Assembly: GCA_023458995.1 (NCBI GenBank)
Contig: JAEWVV010000050.1
Coordinates: 1-12,104 of the forward strand
Length of the DNA stretch: 12,104 nucleotides
From: Bacillota bacterium
GTDB taxonomy: Bacteria; Bacillota_I; Bacilli_A; Acholeplasmatales; Acholeplasmataceae
Direction of reading: 5' to 3'
Shown: positions 1 through 6,494 of the stretch, piece by piece
Layout: every line of letters begins with the position of its first letter
How positions within the stretch are numbered: the stretch's first letter is position 1
Notes under the pieces: generated by a model
Told to the model about the DNA's origin: nothing
Databases searched by the model: none
Seen by the model: the letters and a program-made list of their open reading frames with translations, nothing else
Translations under genes and position numbers: made by a program

Positions 1-543
1 CTCTTAGATAATCCACGTCTTGGTTTGTTATTTACGAAAACAGAAAGAGAATTTTTAAGATTAAATGGGTATATGACCTTAGGTAAAGATGACGATATAA
101 AAAAACAGTTTAAGCTGTTATCAAGTCTTAAACTAAGACCAAGATTAGCACTTGATCTTTATCATAAAGAATTAACCTATTATATCGATACTCAAAAATA
201 TGACTTAGCTTTAATGAGTCATAAAAATTTAAGAGAGATCCTTTTAAAACAAAAGAAAGAACAAGCGAAAAAACTTCTTGAAGAAGCGGATTTAATCGTT
301 CAAATTTACATTCATAAAGATATATCACTGATTCCGCTACTCCTTGAAAAAGCAGAAAAAGAAGAACATATGCTCATTAAAGGCGTTCTTTATTACCGTT
401 TAGCAAAATTATCTTATTTTGCGAAAAAGAATAAAGATGTTGATCTCTATTTAAGAAGAGCAGAACCATTACTTAAGAAAACCACTTATGAACCCATTAT
501 TAAAAGTGCGTTCAAAGACTACCATATTCTAAATATAAAGTGA
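1..543 (+). CDS. Unrecognised helical protein, 5'-truncated by the window edge
   Basis: The frame is open from base 1 to a TGA stop at 541-543, so the visible part is about 180 residues and the true start lies upstream. The TTG at 25 is an internal possibility, but nothing before it resembles a good ribosome binding site. The protein is Lys/Glu/Leu-rich with alternating amphipathic helices, for example around YYRLAKLSYFAKKNKDVDLY near the end, which would suit a TPR-like or other helical-repeat cytoplasmic protein. I see no catalytic motif, signal peptide or membrane segment in this part. The stop is 8 nt before the start of the HPr-like gene, so the two are probably co-transcribed. I do not recognise the family. 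That it is coding is well supported by codon use and its tight junction with the next gene. Confidence 0.75.
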   Translation, partial: LLDNPRLGLLFTKTEREFLRLNGYMTLGKDDDIKKQFKLLSSLKLRPRLALDLYHKELTYYIDTQKYDLALMSHKNLREILLKQKKEQAKKLLEEADLIVQIYIHKDISLIPLLLEKAEKEEHMLIKGVLYYRLAKLSYFAKKNKDVDLYLRRAEPLLKKTTYEPIIKSAFKDYHILNIK

Positions 544-1835: not shown

Positions 1836-4295
1836 GTGAAAAAACTCATTTTGTCATTAAGTGTGATATTTTTACTATCATGTTTTCTTTTTGCATGTAC
1901 AGGTGATCAAATCAATTTAGATGATATCGATATTGAAGCGATTGACCGTACCAATATTCCAGTAGGTACATATCAAATTCAGTATACGATTGATGACATC
2001 GTAAACCTCGTAGATAATCATGGAGCAAGCGTCTCATTCACTGTTGAAAACAGTGCAAATGAAGATGTCTTAGTCACTGGTTCAACATTTACTGTAGAAG
2101 CTAACGAGGTATATACAGTCAAAATTAAACTCACCGTAGGAGACAGATTTAAAGAAAAAACAATTACAGTTACTGCTGTAACAGTAGAAACAACAGTGCT
2201 TATAACATTCGTATTAAACGGTGGAAATGGATCATTTCCTGCATTAACTATGGATTACGGCACTACCTTAAACATCACTACCTCCCCAACCAAAGACGGA
2301 TTTAGATTTATGGGTTGGTATTTCGAAGATACACTTACGACACGTTATACAAATCAGATAATAACTTCAAACATTTCACTTTATGCAAAATGGGAACCTG
2401 TCGTTATCGAAACAGCAGTTGTATCTTTTTATACATCACTTGAACCAAACCAAGCACTAGACCAAGCACTCGATCAAACAGTAGTTTATGGAAGTTATGC
2501 GACGAGACCACAAGATCCTGTGATGGAAGGTTACACATTCATAGGTTGGTTTACTGATAGAATAGGTGGAGATGCATTCAATTTTGAAGCACATGCAATC
2601 TATCAAGATACAATCATCTTTGCACACTGGACAGAAATCATTACAAATTCAAAGATAGTGACTTATAACCTAAATGGAGCTTTTCAACCTGAGCCTATCA
2701 CTGAAAAAGTTGAAGTTGGTTCGTCACCTGTTGGACCAGATTATCAATTTACCTATGCAAATCATATCTTTCAAGGATGGTCAACAGATGAAGAAGCTGA
2801 AGTTGCTATGGACTTATCAAAAATGATCATTACAGATTCGATTACACTTTATGCAGTATGGCATATTGATTTTGAAGTGATTGATGGCACATCCTATTAT
2901 CAAGATCATATGGCATTTGAAAGACCTGAGATCAATGATGGTTTTGTGGAACAACGTTATCTCGTCTCTACATTTATGCATTTAACAGAAATAGAAAATG
3001 ATTTATCAATTGAAGAAGCACGCGTAAGTTATGGAATACTTTATAGTTCATTATCTGATGTTCCTAGTTATTACGATATCAACTCAAAACGTCACGATGT
3101 ATCATTTGATGAGTTTGATCAAATGATTACGATACCACTCTTAGAAATCTTGACAGATCCACTCCTAAGTGAAACCCAGTACAAAATGGTATCTTATGTT
3201 CGTTTTGAAACAACAATTGTCTATAGTGATGTCATCGATTTAAAAACATATATTCATGTACCAGAAGGTACAGCTATTGGCGCCAACTATATATTAAATG
3301 GAGGTTATTTCAAGTATGATTCTAATACAACTGCATTCAGACCTTCAATGTATATTGAAATCTTAGACGGTTTTGAGGCTAAACTTGATGGTAATACCTA
3401 TATCAGTTATTCACAGTTGATGCGTGAAGGTATCAGAAGACTAGTTACAAAAGAAATCGCTACAGGTAAAGAGTATCTTCATGTCTTTCATCTCGACTTC
3501 CAAACACCTCATGTTACGATTACTTTATCGAATTATACGGACTTAAGTGGGGATTTATTACCTGTTTATGGTATTGTTTTCCCATTTGAAGAGAATATTA
3601 ATTACCCAGTCTCTGAACTTGGTGTACTCTATTCAAAGACGCATCCATTCTTAAAACTAGATGTTCCTGGAGTTCATAAAAAACTAGCGAGCCTGATTCC
3701 TAATGAAAATAAATTTGAAACAAATAGTAGAATTGATTCATCTAGAGATGATATCTATGTGAGAGGTTACGCGATCATTAATGGTAAAGTATCCTATGCG
3801 AAGTCGATACATAAACTGGTATATAACAGTGCTTCAGAAGTGTATGAAACATTCGAGACTATTGATACAACCGAACTTAAGACAACCGAAGAATTTGGTA
3901 CATCAGCAAACTACACACCACAGATAAAACGTATTTATAAAGTTGTTGGAGACGAGATTACATATCAAGATTATCCCAATGAATTTACACTCACAGAAAA
4001 TGGTCAATACTTTGTAAGAAATAGTGATGGTACAGGAATGATCGATGATATTTTAATTATTGATGATTATCCAGATGTTACAGGCGTTAGCGAACTTGCT
4101 CAATATGTAGGTTCTGTATTGATCACATGTGATATGTATAACCCTGATTGGTATTATTCACTAAATGATGGCGATTTTGTTACATTACCTGCACAAATCA
4201 GACTCACTGTCCCAGGTTTCTATGAACTCTATTACCGCACAGGAGAAGGTATGGAAGTCATCAATTTTGAGATTGTTTCTGAAGCAACTGAATAA
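1836..4295 (+). CDS. Large surface lipoprotein with three InlB/Flg_new-type B-repeats
   Basis: The protein is 819 aa. GTG 1836 is chosen because GGGGA (1824-1828) lies 7 nt before it and the protein then opens with a classical lipoprotein signal peptide: Lys2-Lys3, a hydrophobic stretch, and lipobox LFAC with Cys21. LLSC ending at Cys16 is a second possible lipobox. An upstream in-frame ATG at 1776 would lie inside or before the promoter. Residues about 41-120 look like a beta-rich Ig/cadherin-like segment. Three tandem Listeria-Bacteroides (InlB B-repeat/Flg_new) units follow at about 123-187, 196-267 and 274-344, each with the F.GW pattern and an ending like LYAKW, FAHW or LYAVW. Residues 345-819 are beta-rich with no motif I recognise. 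It is likely anchored to the outer face of the membrane, perhaps for adhesion or matrix contact; that role is inferred only from the repeat family. The gene stands alone with its own promoter and a shared terminator. Confidence 0.9.
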   Translation: MKKLILSLSVIFLLSCFLFACTGDQINLDDIDIEAIDRTNIPVGTYQIQYTIDDIVNLVDNHGASVSFTVENSANEDVLVTGSTFTVEANEVYTVKIKLTVGDRFKEKTITVTAVTVETTVLITFVLNGGNGSFPALTMDYGTTLNITTSPTKDGFRFMGWYFEDTLTTRYTNQIITSNISLYAKWEPVVIETAVVSFYTSLEPNQALDQALDQTVVYGSYATRPQDPVMEGYTFIGWFTDRIGGDAFNFEAHAIYQDTIIFAHWTEIITNSKIVTYNLNGAFQPEPITEKVEVGSSPVGPDYQFTYANHIFQGWSTDEEAEVAMDLSKMIITDSITLYAVWHIDFEVIDGTSYYQDHMAFERPEINDGFVEQRYLVSTFMHLTEIENDLSIEEARVSYGILYSSLSDVPSYYDINSKRHDVSFDEFDQMITIPLLEILTDPLLSETQYKMVSYVRFETTIVYSDVIDLKTYIHVPEGTAIGANYILNGGYFKYDSNTTAFRPSMYIEILDGFEAKLDGNTYISYSQLMREGIRRLVTKEIATGKEYLHVFHLDFQTPHVTITLSNYTDLSGDLLPVYGIVFPFEENINYPVSELGVLYSKTHPFLKLDVPGVHKKLASLIPNENKFETNSRIDSSRDDIYVRGYAIINGKVSYAKSIHKLVYNSASEVYETFETIDTTELKTTEEFGTSANYTPQIKRIYKVVGDEITYQDYPNEFTLTENGQYFVRNSDGTGMIDDILIIDDYPDVTGVSELAQYVGSVLITCDMYNPDWYYSLNDGDFVTLPAQIRLTVPGFYELYYRTGEGMEVINFEIVSEATE

Positions 4296-4308
4296 GCTAT
4301 AAAAAAAG

Positions 4309-4336
4309 AAATCACTTGGACTCAAGTGATTTTTTT
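4309..4336. terminator. Bidirectional terminator between convergent genes
   Basis: AAATCACTTG (4309-4318) pairs with CAAGTGATTT (4323-4332) across a GACT loop, giving a perfect 10-bp stem. On the plus strand it is followed by T4330-4336. On the minus strand the A-run at 4301-4307 supplies the U-tract. It therefore serves both the lipoprotein gene (stop at 4293-4295) and the minus-strand reductase. The reductase TGA stop (4314-4312) lies inside the stem, so its last codons encode one arm of the hairpin. Confidence 0.88.
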
Positions 4337-5184
4337 GGATTTAAATAAGCATAGATCGCATCAGCCGCATTCATACCATCGTATGCAGCTTTTACGATTT
4401 GAAGTTTTCCACCGATGATATCACCAGCTGCAAATAATCCTGGGACGTTTGTCATATAATTTTCATCAACAACAAGACTATTCTTTTCGATAATAACACC
4501 GAGTTGACTTGCAAAATCAACAGAGCTTGGAGTACCTAACGCAATGAAGGCACCACTCACTTCATAGGTAGAAGAAGTTGTTTCAATTGCGGTAAGCTTT
4601 TCTGTTCCAGTAAACTTCGTGATTTTATCACTAACAACAGGAACATCCACTTCCACTTTAAGATCATTTCCATCGGTGAATACGGTGACATCGCTAGTCA
4701 TTTTTTTCAAATATTCAAGTTCATGTAACATGTAAGGGCCACATCCGATGAGTGCAATTTTCTTTCTTCTATAAAAGAATCCATCACAGGTTGCACACAT
4801 GCTAATACCTTTACCACGATATTGGTTAAATCCTGGTCTTCGCATGGTTCGTCTTTGTTTACCTGTGGCAAGTAAAACAGTTTTTGTCTCATAGTGGTTG
4901 TGCTGCGTAATGACTTCAAATGATTCTCCTAATGATTTTAACGAAATAACAGAATCAGTGATCACTTCAATCCCTAAATTCTTAGCTTGATTGATTCCGT
5001 TATTGATTAAGTCTTTACCGTTAATGGGCTCAACTAAGCCATAATAGTTTTCAACTTTATCGTCATAACCCTCAAGAGCTCCTAAGTCTTTACCAATAAC
5101 AAAGGGTTCAATTCCTTGTCTTTTTAAGTAGATGGCTGCCTGTATTCCAGCGGGTCCATAACCTATAATAATAACATCTTTCAT
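4312..5184 (-). CDS. Thioredoxin-reductase-like flavoprotein lacking NADPH motifs (FFTR-like)
   Basis: This 290-aa protein has the low-molecular-weight thioredoxin reductase fold. The FAD dinucleotide site is GYGPAG at 8-13, ATG at 106-108 is in the linker, the redox-active CATCDG has Cys130 and Cys133, and the second FAD motif is AAGD at 252-255. What is missing matters: the NADPH-binding loop, usually GGGDSA, reads GCGPYM (147-152), and the HRRxxxR stretch that binds the NADPH 2'-phosphate is replaced by VTVFTDGNDLKVEV. Flavoenzymes of this kind are known from Clostridium as ferredoxin-dependent flavin thioredoxin reductases (FFTR), which reduce thioredoxin with ferredoxin electrons. The gene is coupled to trxA by a 4-nt ATGA overlap, so its substrate is very probably that thioredoxin. 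The FFTR reading is inference; a degenerate NADPH-dependent TrxB or another pyridine-nucleotide-independent relative is the alternative. Confidence 0.9.
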   Translation of the reverse strand: MKDVIIIGYGPAGIQAAIYLKRQGIEPFVIGKDLGALEGYDDKVENYYGLVEPINGKDLINNGINQAKNLGIEVITDSVISLKSLGESFEVITQHNHYETKTVLLATGKQRRTMRRPGFNQYRGKGISMCATCDGFFYRRKKIALIGCGPYMLHELEYLKKMTSDVTVFTDGNDLKVEVDVPVVSDKITKFTGTEKLTAIETTSSTYEVSGAFIALGTPSSVDFASQLGVIIEKNSLVVDENYMTNVPGLFAAGDIIGGKLQIVKAAYDGMNAADAIYAYLNPKKSLESK

Positions 5185-5492
5185 AAATCAAGTAGTTTCT
5201 TTAATGTGTCCTTGGATTGTACACCAATGGTTGATTGATGAACTTTTCCGTTCTTAAAGACAATCATTGTTGGAATACTCATAATGCCTAATTCATCAGC
5301 AATTTCTGATTCTTCATCAACGTCTAGTTTTCCAATTTTTGCGAGATCTTTAATATCATTTGCTAGGTCTTCTAAGATAGGAGCAACTCTTTGACAAGGA
5401 CCACACCAAGTTGCCCAAAATTCAACAAGAACTGGACGATCACTTTTTAAAACTTCTTCTTCAAAATTGTTTGTTGTAAATGTACGTACCAT
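5181..5492 (-). CDS. trxA: Thioredoxin
   Basis: This is a 103-aa single-domain thioredoxin of normal length. WCGPC is at 29-33 with redox cysteines 30 and 33, the cis-proline is Pro74 in SIPTM, and the VEFWATW strand before the active site is typical. It acts in the cytoplasm as a general disulfide reductant, for example for ribonucleotide reductase and peroxiredoxins (family knowledge). The start is well fixed by a strong GAGGTGA ribosome binding site (plus-strand 5497-5503) 4 nt before the ATG. The stop overlaps the start of the downstream reductase as ATGA, so the pair is translationally coupled. A small oddity is Gln34-Arg35 after the CGPC, where Lys/Arg-Met/Ala is more usual. Confidence 0.95.
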   Translation of the reverse strand: MVRTFTTNNFEEEVLKSDRPVLVEFWATWCGPCQRVAPILEDLANDIKDLAKIGKLDVDEESEIADELGIMSIPTMIVFKNGKVHQSTIGVQSKDTLKKLLDL

Positions 5493-5520
5493 GATTTCAC
5501 CTCATATTGTTTTCATACCC

Positions 5521-5526
5521 ATTATA
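5521..5526 (-). promoter_or_regulatory. Probable -10 box for the trxA-reductase operon
   Basis: Read on the minus strand this is TATAAT, 28 nt before the trxA ATG. The expected -35 region (plus-strand about 5544-5549) is a poor match to TTGACA, so the promoter may be weak or need an activator. An inverted repeat (5538-5558) covers that -35 region. Confidence 0.5.
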
Positions 5527-5537
5527 AATAAAAGATG

Positions 5538-5558
5538 GTAAAAACGCTACCTTTTTAC
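5538..5558. repeat. Inverted repeat over the trxA -35 region
   Basis: GTAAAAA (5538-5544) and TTTTTAC (5552-5558) form perfect 7-bp arms around a 7-nt centre. It lies just upstream of the minus-strand -10 box, where a regulator of the thioredoxin pair could bind. The arms are A/T-rich, so chance is a real alternative. A second near-palindrome (TTCTTT-AG-AAAGAA, 5561-5574) follows directly. Confidence 0.35.
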
Positions 5559-5640
5559 ACTTCTTTAGAAAGAATCTTTTTCGATGATGCACTCCACAAA
5601 TGAAATCAACGTCATGATATTTGGTGCGCTACTTTCATAA

Positions 5641-5671
5641 GTATCTTTAACATGATATAATGTTAAGGTAC
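5641..5671. promoter_or_regulatory. Inverted repeat over the ECF operon -10 box (possible operator)
   Basis: TTAACAT (5647-5653) and ATGTTAA (5660-5666) are perfect 7-bp arms around GATATA. Allowing one bulged T (5644) and one T-G pair, complementarity extends outward to 5641 and 5671. The element is centred on the -10 box, so a dimeric repressor bound here would block transcription. It lies at or before the transcription start, so it probably acts as DNA rather than RNA. The bound protein is unknown. Confidence 0.4.
5653..5661 (+). promoter_or_regulatory. Extended -10 promoter for the ecfA1 operon
   Basis: TGA-TATAAT (TGnTATAAT) is a full extended -10 element, with TATAAT at 5656-5661. The -35 position (5633-5638, TTTCAT) matches weakly, as is common for extended -10 promoters. 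Transcription would begin near 5668, leaving a leader of about 20 nt with AGGTGA (5679-5684) as the ribosome binding site. Confidence 0.65.
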
Positions 5672-5690
5672 GAAATGTAGGTGAACACAC

Positions 5691-6494
5691 ATGATAAAAG
5701 TAAGCGATTTAAGCTTTTCATACAATCAAGATGATGAAGCTTTAAAACGGGTTAGCCTCAAGATTGATAAAGGTTCTTGGGTGTCCATATTAGGACATAA
5801 TGGTTCCGGTAAATCAACGCTATCGAAATGTCTCGTTGGTCTTTTAGCACCCACATCGGGTGAAATTTATATTGATGGTCTTTTGTTAGATGAAAAGAAC
5901 CTTCCAGAAATCAGAAAAAAGATAGGTATCGTTTTCCAAAATCCCGATAATCAGTTTGTCGGTGTTACGGTTAAACACGATATCGCTTTTGGTTTAGAAA
6001 ATCAGTGTCTTCCTCATGATTTGATGATGGAAAAGATTATGCATTATGCAAAATTGGTTAACATGGAAGACTTTTTAAGTAAAGAACCACATCAATTATC
6101 GGGTGGACAAAAACAAAGGGTTGCTATCGCTGGTGCGCTTGCGATGGAACAAGATATTCTTATTCTTGATGAAGCAACTTCAATGTTAGATCCTGAAGGA
6201 ACAAAAGAAATCGTTGAACTCATTAAATATTTAAATCAATCTCTTCAAAAAACGATTATTACGATTACACACGATCTTTCATTTGCAGGATTGAGTGATC
6301 GTCTCATTGTTTTAAAGGATGGAGAAATTATTCTTGAAGGTACACCTAAAGAAGTTTTTAGAGAAGAAGAAAAACTAAAATCTTCTCACTTAGAACTTCC
6401 TTTTGGTTTAGCACTTTATAATGACTTAGCTAAAGATCCAAACACGGATCCCAAACTTTTGGAGGCACTATGGGCATTCAATTCAAAGATGTAA
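5691..6494 (+). CDS. ecfA1: ECF transporter energy-coupling ATPase EcfA1
   Basis: This is a 267-aa ABC ATPase of the energy-coupling factor type. Walker A is GHNGSGKST (35-43), Q-loop Gln83 lies in FQNPDNQFVGVTVKHDIAFG (typical of EcfA1), the signature LSGGQ is at 136-140, Walker B ends in Asp160-Glu161, and the switch His is 194. It pairs with EcfA2 and EcfT on the cytoplasmic face of the membrane to drive interchangeable S-components for vitamins or metal ions. No S-component is encoded here, which fits a shared (group II) module. It is the first gene of the operon, and its 3' end overlaps ecfA2 by 25 nt. Confidence 0.95.
   Translation: MIKVSDLSFSYNQDDEALKRVSLKIDKGSWVSILGHNGSGKSTLSKCLVGLLAPTSGEIYIDGLLLDEKNLPEIRKKIGIVFQNPDNQFVGVTVKHDIAFGLENQCLPHDLMMEKIMHYAKLVNMEDFLSKEPHQLSGGQKQRVAIAGALAMEQDILILDEATSMLDPEGTKEIVELIKYLNQSLQKTIITITHDLSFAGLSDRLIVLKDGEIILEGTPKEVFREEEKLKSSHLELPFGLALYNDLAKDPNTDPKLLEALWAFNSKM

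Follow-up and report, generated by a model that had tools for sequence, protein, structure and literature searches.

A TRi-type thioredoxin reductase gene overlapping trxA in a member of the Acholeplasmataceae, and the likely nature of its electron donor

The stretch of DNA analyzed here (the window; 12,104 nucleotides, contig JAEWVV010000050.1 of assembly GCA_023458995.1) comes from a member of the Acholeplasmataceae, a wall-less bacterium, and carries on its minus strand a trxA gene whose stop codon overlaps the start codon of a trxB-like gene (Table 1). A preliminary description of this locus had noted that the encoded flavoprotein keeps both FAD motifs and the redox-active CATC, while the GGGDSA loop and the HRRxxxR stretch of NADPH-dependent reductases are lost, and had likened it to the ferredoxin-dependent flavin thioredoxin reductases (FFTRs) of Clostridium. 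The motif changes are confirmed by the sequence and by alignment, and the loss of NAD(P)H motifs is indeed shared with FFTRs. The assignment to the FFTR family, however, needs correction, as the protein is a new member of the known TRi family, the group of DvTRi from Desulfovibrio vulgaris (PDB 5nii; PMC5627308).

Table 1. Features of the trxA and trxB-like genes, with positions in the window
Feature	Position	Strand	Basis
TRi-type thioredoxin reductase gene, trxB-like (290 aa); FAD flavoprotein without NAD(P)H site	4312..5184	-	Open reading frame; Pyr_redox_2 (Pfam); TIGR01292 208 bits, cut-off 343; best PDB match 5nii
trxA, thioredoxin (103 aa)	5181..5492	-	TIGR01068 above cut-off; PF00085
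ATGA overlap of the trxA stop codon (TGA) with the trxB start codon (ATG)	5181..5184	-	Sequence; same -4 spacing in 34/57 genomes
WCGPC active site of TrxA	5394..5408	-	Sequence
FAD motif GYGPAG, residues 8-13	5146..5163	-	Sequence
Redox-active CATC, residues 130-133	4786..4797	-	Sequence; both Cys in 120/120 homologues
GCGPYM replacing GGGDSA, residues 147-152, first Rossmann loop	4729..4746	-	Alignment with eight solved NTR-type sequences
FTDGNDL replacing VHRRDxLRA, residues 169-175; TRi-like TxG motif	4660..4680	-	Alignment; CTQGK in DvTRi
Second FAD motif GLFAAGD, residues 249-255	4420..4440	-	Sequence
Intrinsic terminator-like hairpin at trxB 3′ end, 10-bp stem then T run	4309..4332	-	1 vs 0.7 (standard deviation 0.9) in shuffles; weak alone

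The window protein shares its FAD domain, the CxxC center and the thioredoxin-docking residues (GKG and FFY in the alignment) with the canonical NADPH-dependent TrxB enzymes (NTRs). It differs from them in that GGGxxA and HRRxxxR, intact in NTRs, are lost, and in the length of its pseudo-NADPH domain, which from the loop to the strand returning to the FAD domain spans 63 residues, 17 fewer than the 80 of the Bacillus and Staphylococcus enzymes (7aaw, 4gcm). In DvTRi the same domain has 72 residues, whereas the clostridial FFTR 6gna matches the window protein with 63. The protein contains no Trp in its 290 residues and ends in YLNPKKSLESK. In the predicted model its fold and domain arrangement match those of 5nii, its best PDB match, and no helix is formed at residues 170-187. 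The protein falls below the cut-off of TIGR01292, the TrxB equivalog, but this is a weak test because class-A enzymes of relatives, described below, also score under it.

The trees place the window protein with DvTRi (100/99 split) and outside the clostridial FFTR clade, which forms a separate group (100/100), and in an approximately unbiased (AU) test run with the Desulfovibrio rows a grouping of Desulfovibrio TRi with FFTR is rejected (p = 0.007). A second tree left out seven near-duplicate rows and 5nii, the latter replaced by the 99% identical P0121; neither tree contains L110 or GvFFTR, and the structure alignment covers 40 of the 120 homologues described below. Because of the trees and the 5nii match, membership of the clostridial FFTR family is rejected, and by sequence, tree and predicted fold the protein is a member of the TRi family. 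With DvTRi it shares CxxC, GKG and FF, a degenerate pyrophosphate loop, a TxG motif in place of HRR and a shortened pseudo-NADPH domain. It differs in that this domain is nine residues shorter, the loop reads GCGPYM rather than GEGVFA and the second motif TDGN rather than TQGK. In addition, DvTRi is described as having no trxA beside it and as coexisting with an NADPH-dependent reductase that serves the same thioredoxin (PMC5627308), whereas the window gene overlaps trxA. The 2017 study counted 17 TRi homologues, in Deltaproteobacteria and Clostridia (PMC5627308); among titles and the starts of abstracts, with most subscription journals outside the search, we found no paper on TRi-like enzymes in Mollicutes.

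FFTRs are defined by missing NADPH motifs with CxxC and GxGxxG retained (PMC10880999; PMC9025218). The C. acetobutylicum enzymes (6gna, 6gnc, 6gnd) accordingly resemble the window protein in lacking NAD(P)H motifs, in keeping GxGxxG and CATC and, for 6gna, in the length of the pseudo-domain, but they are only 27-28% identical to it in the fold alignment and fill the altered site with other residues (GYNKEAESE and VPRYK, against GCGPYMLHE and FTDGN). In C. difficile the FFTR lies in an operon with trxA (PMC10880999), like the gene pair of the window. The Gloeobacter FFTR (5j60, 6xtf) has also lost the NADPH motifs, and for both it and the window enzyme a ferredoxin-type donor is conceivable. 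Cyanobacterial FFTRs are described with a C-terminal tail whose Trp stacks on the FAD (PMC12796991), a tail that is not found in the window protein; CaFFTR2 is reported to be without one (PMC8469568).

Conservation was read from the 120 best homologues, including the window copy, and from 47 wider clade rows (167 rows in all, with the window in both sets). The nearest named matches, at 67-81% identity, come from Acholeplasmataceae, Acholeplasma or Tenericutes metagenome-assembled genomes (MAGs), with one labelled only as Bacillota, and some homologues are annotated at source as 'thioredoxin reductase (NADPH)'. HRR occurs in none of the 167 rows, GxGxxA/G is intact in seven, and at least two basic residues stand at the 2′-phosphate site in two. 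Both redox cysteines and GKG are invariant in the 120 homologues, as are Y151, M152 and E155 of the altered loop, with T170 kept in 117. The residue C148 (window 4741-4743, minus strand), a third cysteine lying in the altered Rossmann loop, is present in 117 of the 120 close homologues and in eight of the 47 wider clade rows. Where TRi enzymes carry TQ/NGK in place of HRRD, the window protein reads TDGN, a variant of the published motif that keeps T and G but not K; across the 47 wider rows these positions hold T in 44, N in 30, G in 42 and K in 13. The mean fraction of differing sites is 0.36 in the pseudo-NADPH domain, against 0.31 and 0.23 in the two FAD parts. Judged from these values and from the invariant loop residues, the altered NADPH site is not decaying.

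With carriers of the TRi type taken as genomes with a match of at least 167 bits to the window protein (matches were listed down to about 110 bits), the enzyme is present in 91 of the 160 genomes of the window's order. Three partial matches of 152-235 residues (G047, G081, G125) were scored as carriers, and G044, with only an 85-residue match at a contig end, as lacking the enzyme. By our count, the window protein matches just once in 13 of the 91 carriers, among the matches listed. The ATGA overlap, already noted in the preliminary description as the sign of a dedicated pair, is confirmed at 5184-5181 and its linkage recurs: where flanks were read, trxA adjoins the TRi gene in 54 of 57 genomes of the order (53 upstream, one downstream), and a 4-nt overlap, judged by spacing and not by letters, is seen in 34 of them. 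No trxA lies within the 1-kb flanks in G126, G127 and G130. Outside the order, trxA adjoins the TRi gene in five of 16 cases. Around the window pair the gene order reads, in our interpretation, repeat-domain protein, trxB-trxA, ecfA1, ecfA2, ecfT, truA, tmk and holB. A promoter scan of 4200-5720 gave nothing above chance, and no promoter on the minus strand. Elsewhere in the window (25-543, plus strand), a 172-aa open reading frame upstream of HPr has no Pfam match at E 0.001.

In most close relatives the TRi-type enzyme does not stand alone. A class-A TrxB, with GGGNSA but with QNL in place of HRR, occurs in nine of the ten close relatives, and a class-B TrxB (HRSxxRAD) in five. Because of these enzymes, the reading of the window enzyme as the cell's sole thioredoxin reductase is unsupported, and the cell probably has at least one further TrxB-like enzyme. 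One class-A enzyme, L044, was searched, and 7aaw from B. cereus and 7jyp from Thermosipho are among its best solved matches. The class-A enzymes (L044-L052) lack the usual docking GKG and FF and therefore may serve another partner; they are possibly NADH-dependent. A second thioredoxin is present in nine of the ten close relatives, and within the flanks of the nine class-A and five class-B loci no TrxA-like gene lies on the same strand.

Ten further genomes of the order (G098, G105, G107, G100, G099, G116, G118, G112, G104, G102) carry FFTR-like enzymes instead (L104-L113), which are short, without HRR and with a different loop. The one searched scores 273 bits to 6gna, the nine placed in a tree all fall inside the FFTR clade, and trxA adjoins four of the ten genes (300-bp flanks). 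Among the matches listed, TRi and FFTR-like types occur together in no genome, and this exchange of one type for the other fits a shared role. Bacilli are described as having one TrxB, an NTR (PMC10880999), a statement with which the window's order is at odds, should that order be assigned to the Bacilli.

What can be said of the metabolism of the window's organism rests on the genomes of its relatives. The preliminary description had proposed that its thioredoxin runs on ferredoxin electrons and had suggested looking for the enzymes of a ferredoxin-based metabolism. Such enzymes are found in the relatives: all ten close ones have pyruvate:ferredoxin oxidoreductase (POR) and FeFe hydrogenase, and seven have short Fer4 frames away from the POR genes, such frames not being seen in G006, G007 and G008. 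On account of POR and hydrogenase, ferredoxin is a plausible but unproven donor in this organism; the gene by itself does not reveal which carrier is used. A clear stand-alone PF00258 flavodoxin is found in eight of the ten and a weak match in G003; G009 has no PF00258 flavodoxin above cut-off, and a 185-aa frame there matches PF12682. POR or hydrogenase is present in 81 of the 91 carriers, and the ten with neither (G015-G023, G025) all have a stand-alone flavodoxin, a Fer4_7 search of these ten returning only long frames of 302-446 aa. Conversely, 31 carriers are without a stand-alone PF00258 flavodoxin, 15 of them also without PF12682 (PF12641 and PF12724 lay outside the search). These 15 include G126, G127 and G134, in which the window-protein match is the sole one among the matches listed and short Fer4 proteins are present. 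Every carrier has at least one of POR, hydrogenase and stand-alone flavodoxin. In a relative, a 363-aa flavoprotein encoded next to a 160-aa Fer4 protein (L067) was considered as a ferredoxin-linked reductase and set aside, its neighbors resembling, in our reading, a sarcosine/proline-type dehydrogenase operon.

The relative G019, whose chromosome is one contig of 1,496,992 bases, keeps the gene neighborhood of the window and the syntenic trxA-trxB pair. It has a 149-aa flavodoxin; POR and hydrogenase were not found, and a whole-chromosome cysteine-motif scan returned two Fer4-type proteins, read as RnfC-like and QueG-like, and no short ferredoxin. Within the limits of that scan, ferredoxin is unlikely to be the family's only donor. 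The RnfC-like reading rests on the protein's place in an Rnf-like cluster (C1:58659-65347; L176, L177), in which we read RnfC-, RnfD-, two RnfG-, RnfE-, RnfA- and ApbE-like genes; no Fe-S protein of RnfB type turned up in the motif scan of the chromosome. In G019 the thioredoxin adjoining the TRi-type enzyme (C1:105019-105327; L179) has CKSC in place of WCGPC, which is kept in a second thioredoxin (848837-849143). A class-B-like TrxB (C1:1253700-1255324; L237) adjoins a protein of 213 aa that has two CxxC motifs; the two may form an AhpF-like split pair.

Given what was observed, namely the sequence and its place in the family, the absence of both NAD(P)H motifs and of 17 residues, the link to trxA, and genes for both kinds of carrier in relatives, we consider it probable that the window enzyme is a low-molecular-weight thioredoxin reductase of the TRi type, a homodimeric FAD enzyme that has no NAD(P)H binding, is fed by ferredoxin or flavodoxin, and reduces the TrxA of the overlapping gene. 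By analogy with the FFTR mechanism (PMC12796991), and with the dimer, the carrier and the domain motion as inferences, reduced ferredoxin or flavodoxin would pass electrons to the FAD in two one-electron transfers, a domain rotation would place the CATC disulfide next to the reduced FAD, and the CATC dithiol would then swing out to reduce the WCGPC disulfide of TrxA. Because there are carriers without detectable ferredoxin and others without detectable flavodoxin, the donor is likely a low-potential one-electron carrier, whichever of the two the cell has; in the window's organism ferredoxin would be the more likely one.

A strictly ferredoxin-dependent enzyme, an FFTR in function as the preliminary description held, is possible though we do not favor it. 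It would account for the same two motif losses, the 63-residue pseudo-domain shared with 6gna, the ferredoxin metabolism of the close relatives, and the ten genomes in which FFTR-like enzymes replace TRi (hydrogenase in 10/10, POR in 9/10). The protein nevertheless lies outside the FFTR clade, its site is filled by different residues, and the syntenic orthologue persists in G019, where POR and hydrogenase were not found and the motif scan returned no ferredoxin. Strict dependence on flavodoxin, as suggested for DvTRi by its authors, is rather unlikely; the ten carriers without POR and hydrogenase, G019 with its flavodoxin and no ferredoxin found, and the flavodoxins of most close relatives speak for it, against which stand the 31 carriers without a stand-alone PF00258 flavodoxin, G126, G127 and G134 among them.

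Continued use of NADH or NADPH by the window enzyme, in some unusual mode, appears very unlikely. GxG is kept in its loop, and G019 has no obvious route for making reduced ferredoxin; yet all 120 homologues have Y-M where the loop normally carries the small S-A, the basic residues for the 2′-phosphate are nearly gone from the clade, the model has no helix at 170-187, and DvTRi is reported not to be reduced by up to 1 mM NAD(P)H (PMC5627308). NADPH independence of the window enzyme is likely. Least credible is a decaying or repurposed flavoprotein that has lost thioredoxin reduction, for which one could cite the second TrxB-like type in the close relatives and the CKSC of the G019 thioredoxin. 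The invariant redox cysteines and GKG, the divergence values of the pseudo-NADPH domain and the two FAD parts and the trxA linkage in 54 of 57 genomes argue against it.

Several points weigh against the TRi-type, carrier-fed enzyme that we prefer. Placement inside the canonical NADPH-TrxB clade was not found in the tree, but a grouping with NTR is not rejected by the AU test with Desulfovibrio rows (p = 0.14), and with 5nii alone all three alternatives reach p = 0.07-0.08; the tree of the three clades (TRi, FFTR, NTR) is unrooted, and AlphaFold may have learned the conformation of 5nii. The 2017 study left the donor of DvTRi open, and its authors argue against ferredoxin because of a dissimilar pocket (PMC5627308), while in the literature we found no assay of any member of the window's clade. 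The presence of POR, hydrogenase or flavodoxin says little about the enzyme, because 29 of 30 non-carrier genomes (counted without the ten that have FFTR-like enzymes and without the small genomes G051-G079) likewise have one or more of the three; this is a consistency check and not proof, and gaps in MAGs can mimic absence. Finally, the class-B-like TrxB of G019 with its CxxC neighbor suggests that other TrxB types may have their own partners.

A bolder extension, which we regard as a long shot, is that TRi enzymes are carrier-generic and that in ferredoxin-less Acholeplasma a flavodoxin is reduced from NADH, perhaps by the RnfB-less Rnf-like cluster seen in G019, which would make thioredoxin reduction driven by membrane energy and not by NADPH. 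Rnf and hydrogenases have been described in related Tenericutes (PMC7301438; PMC8397711). The window enzyme belongs to a lineage that adds to the known TrxB forms without NADPH motifs and lies outside the clostridial FFTR clade. The family is a common TrxB type in the window's order, in most cases adjacent to trxA where flanking sequence was read. With members that lack detectable ferredoxin and others that lack detectable flavodoxin, the order offers natural tests of the electron donor.
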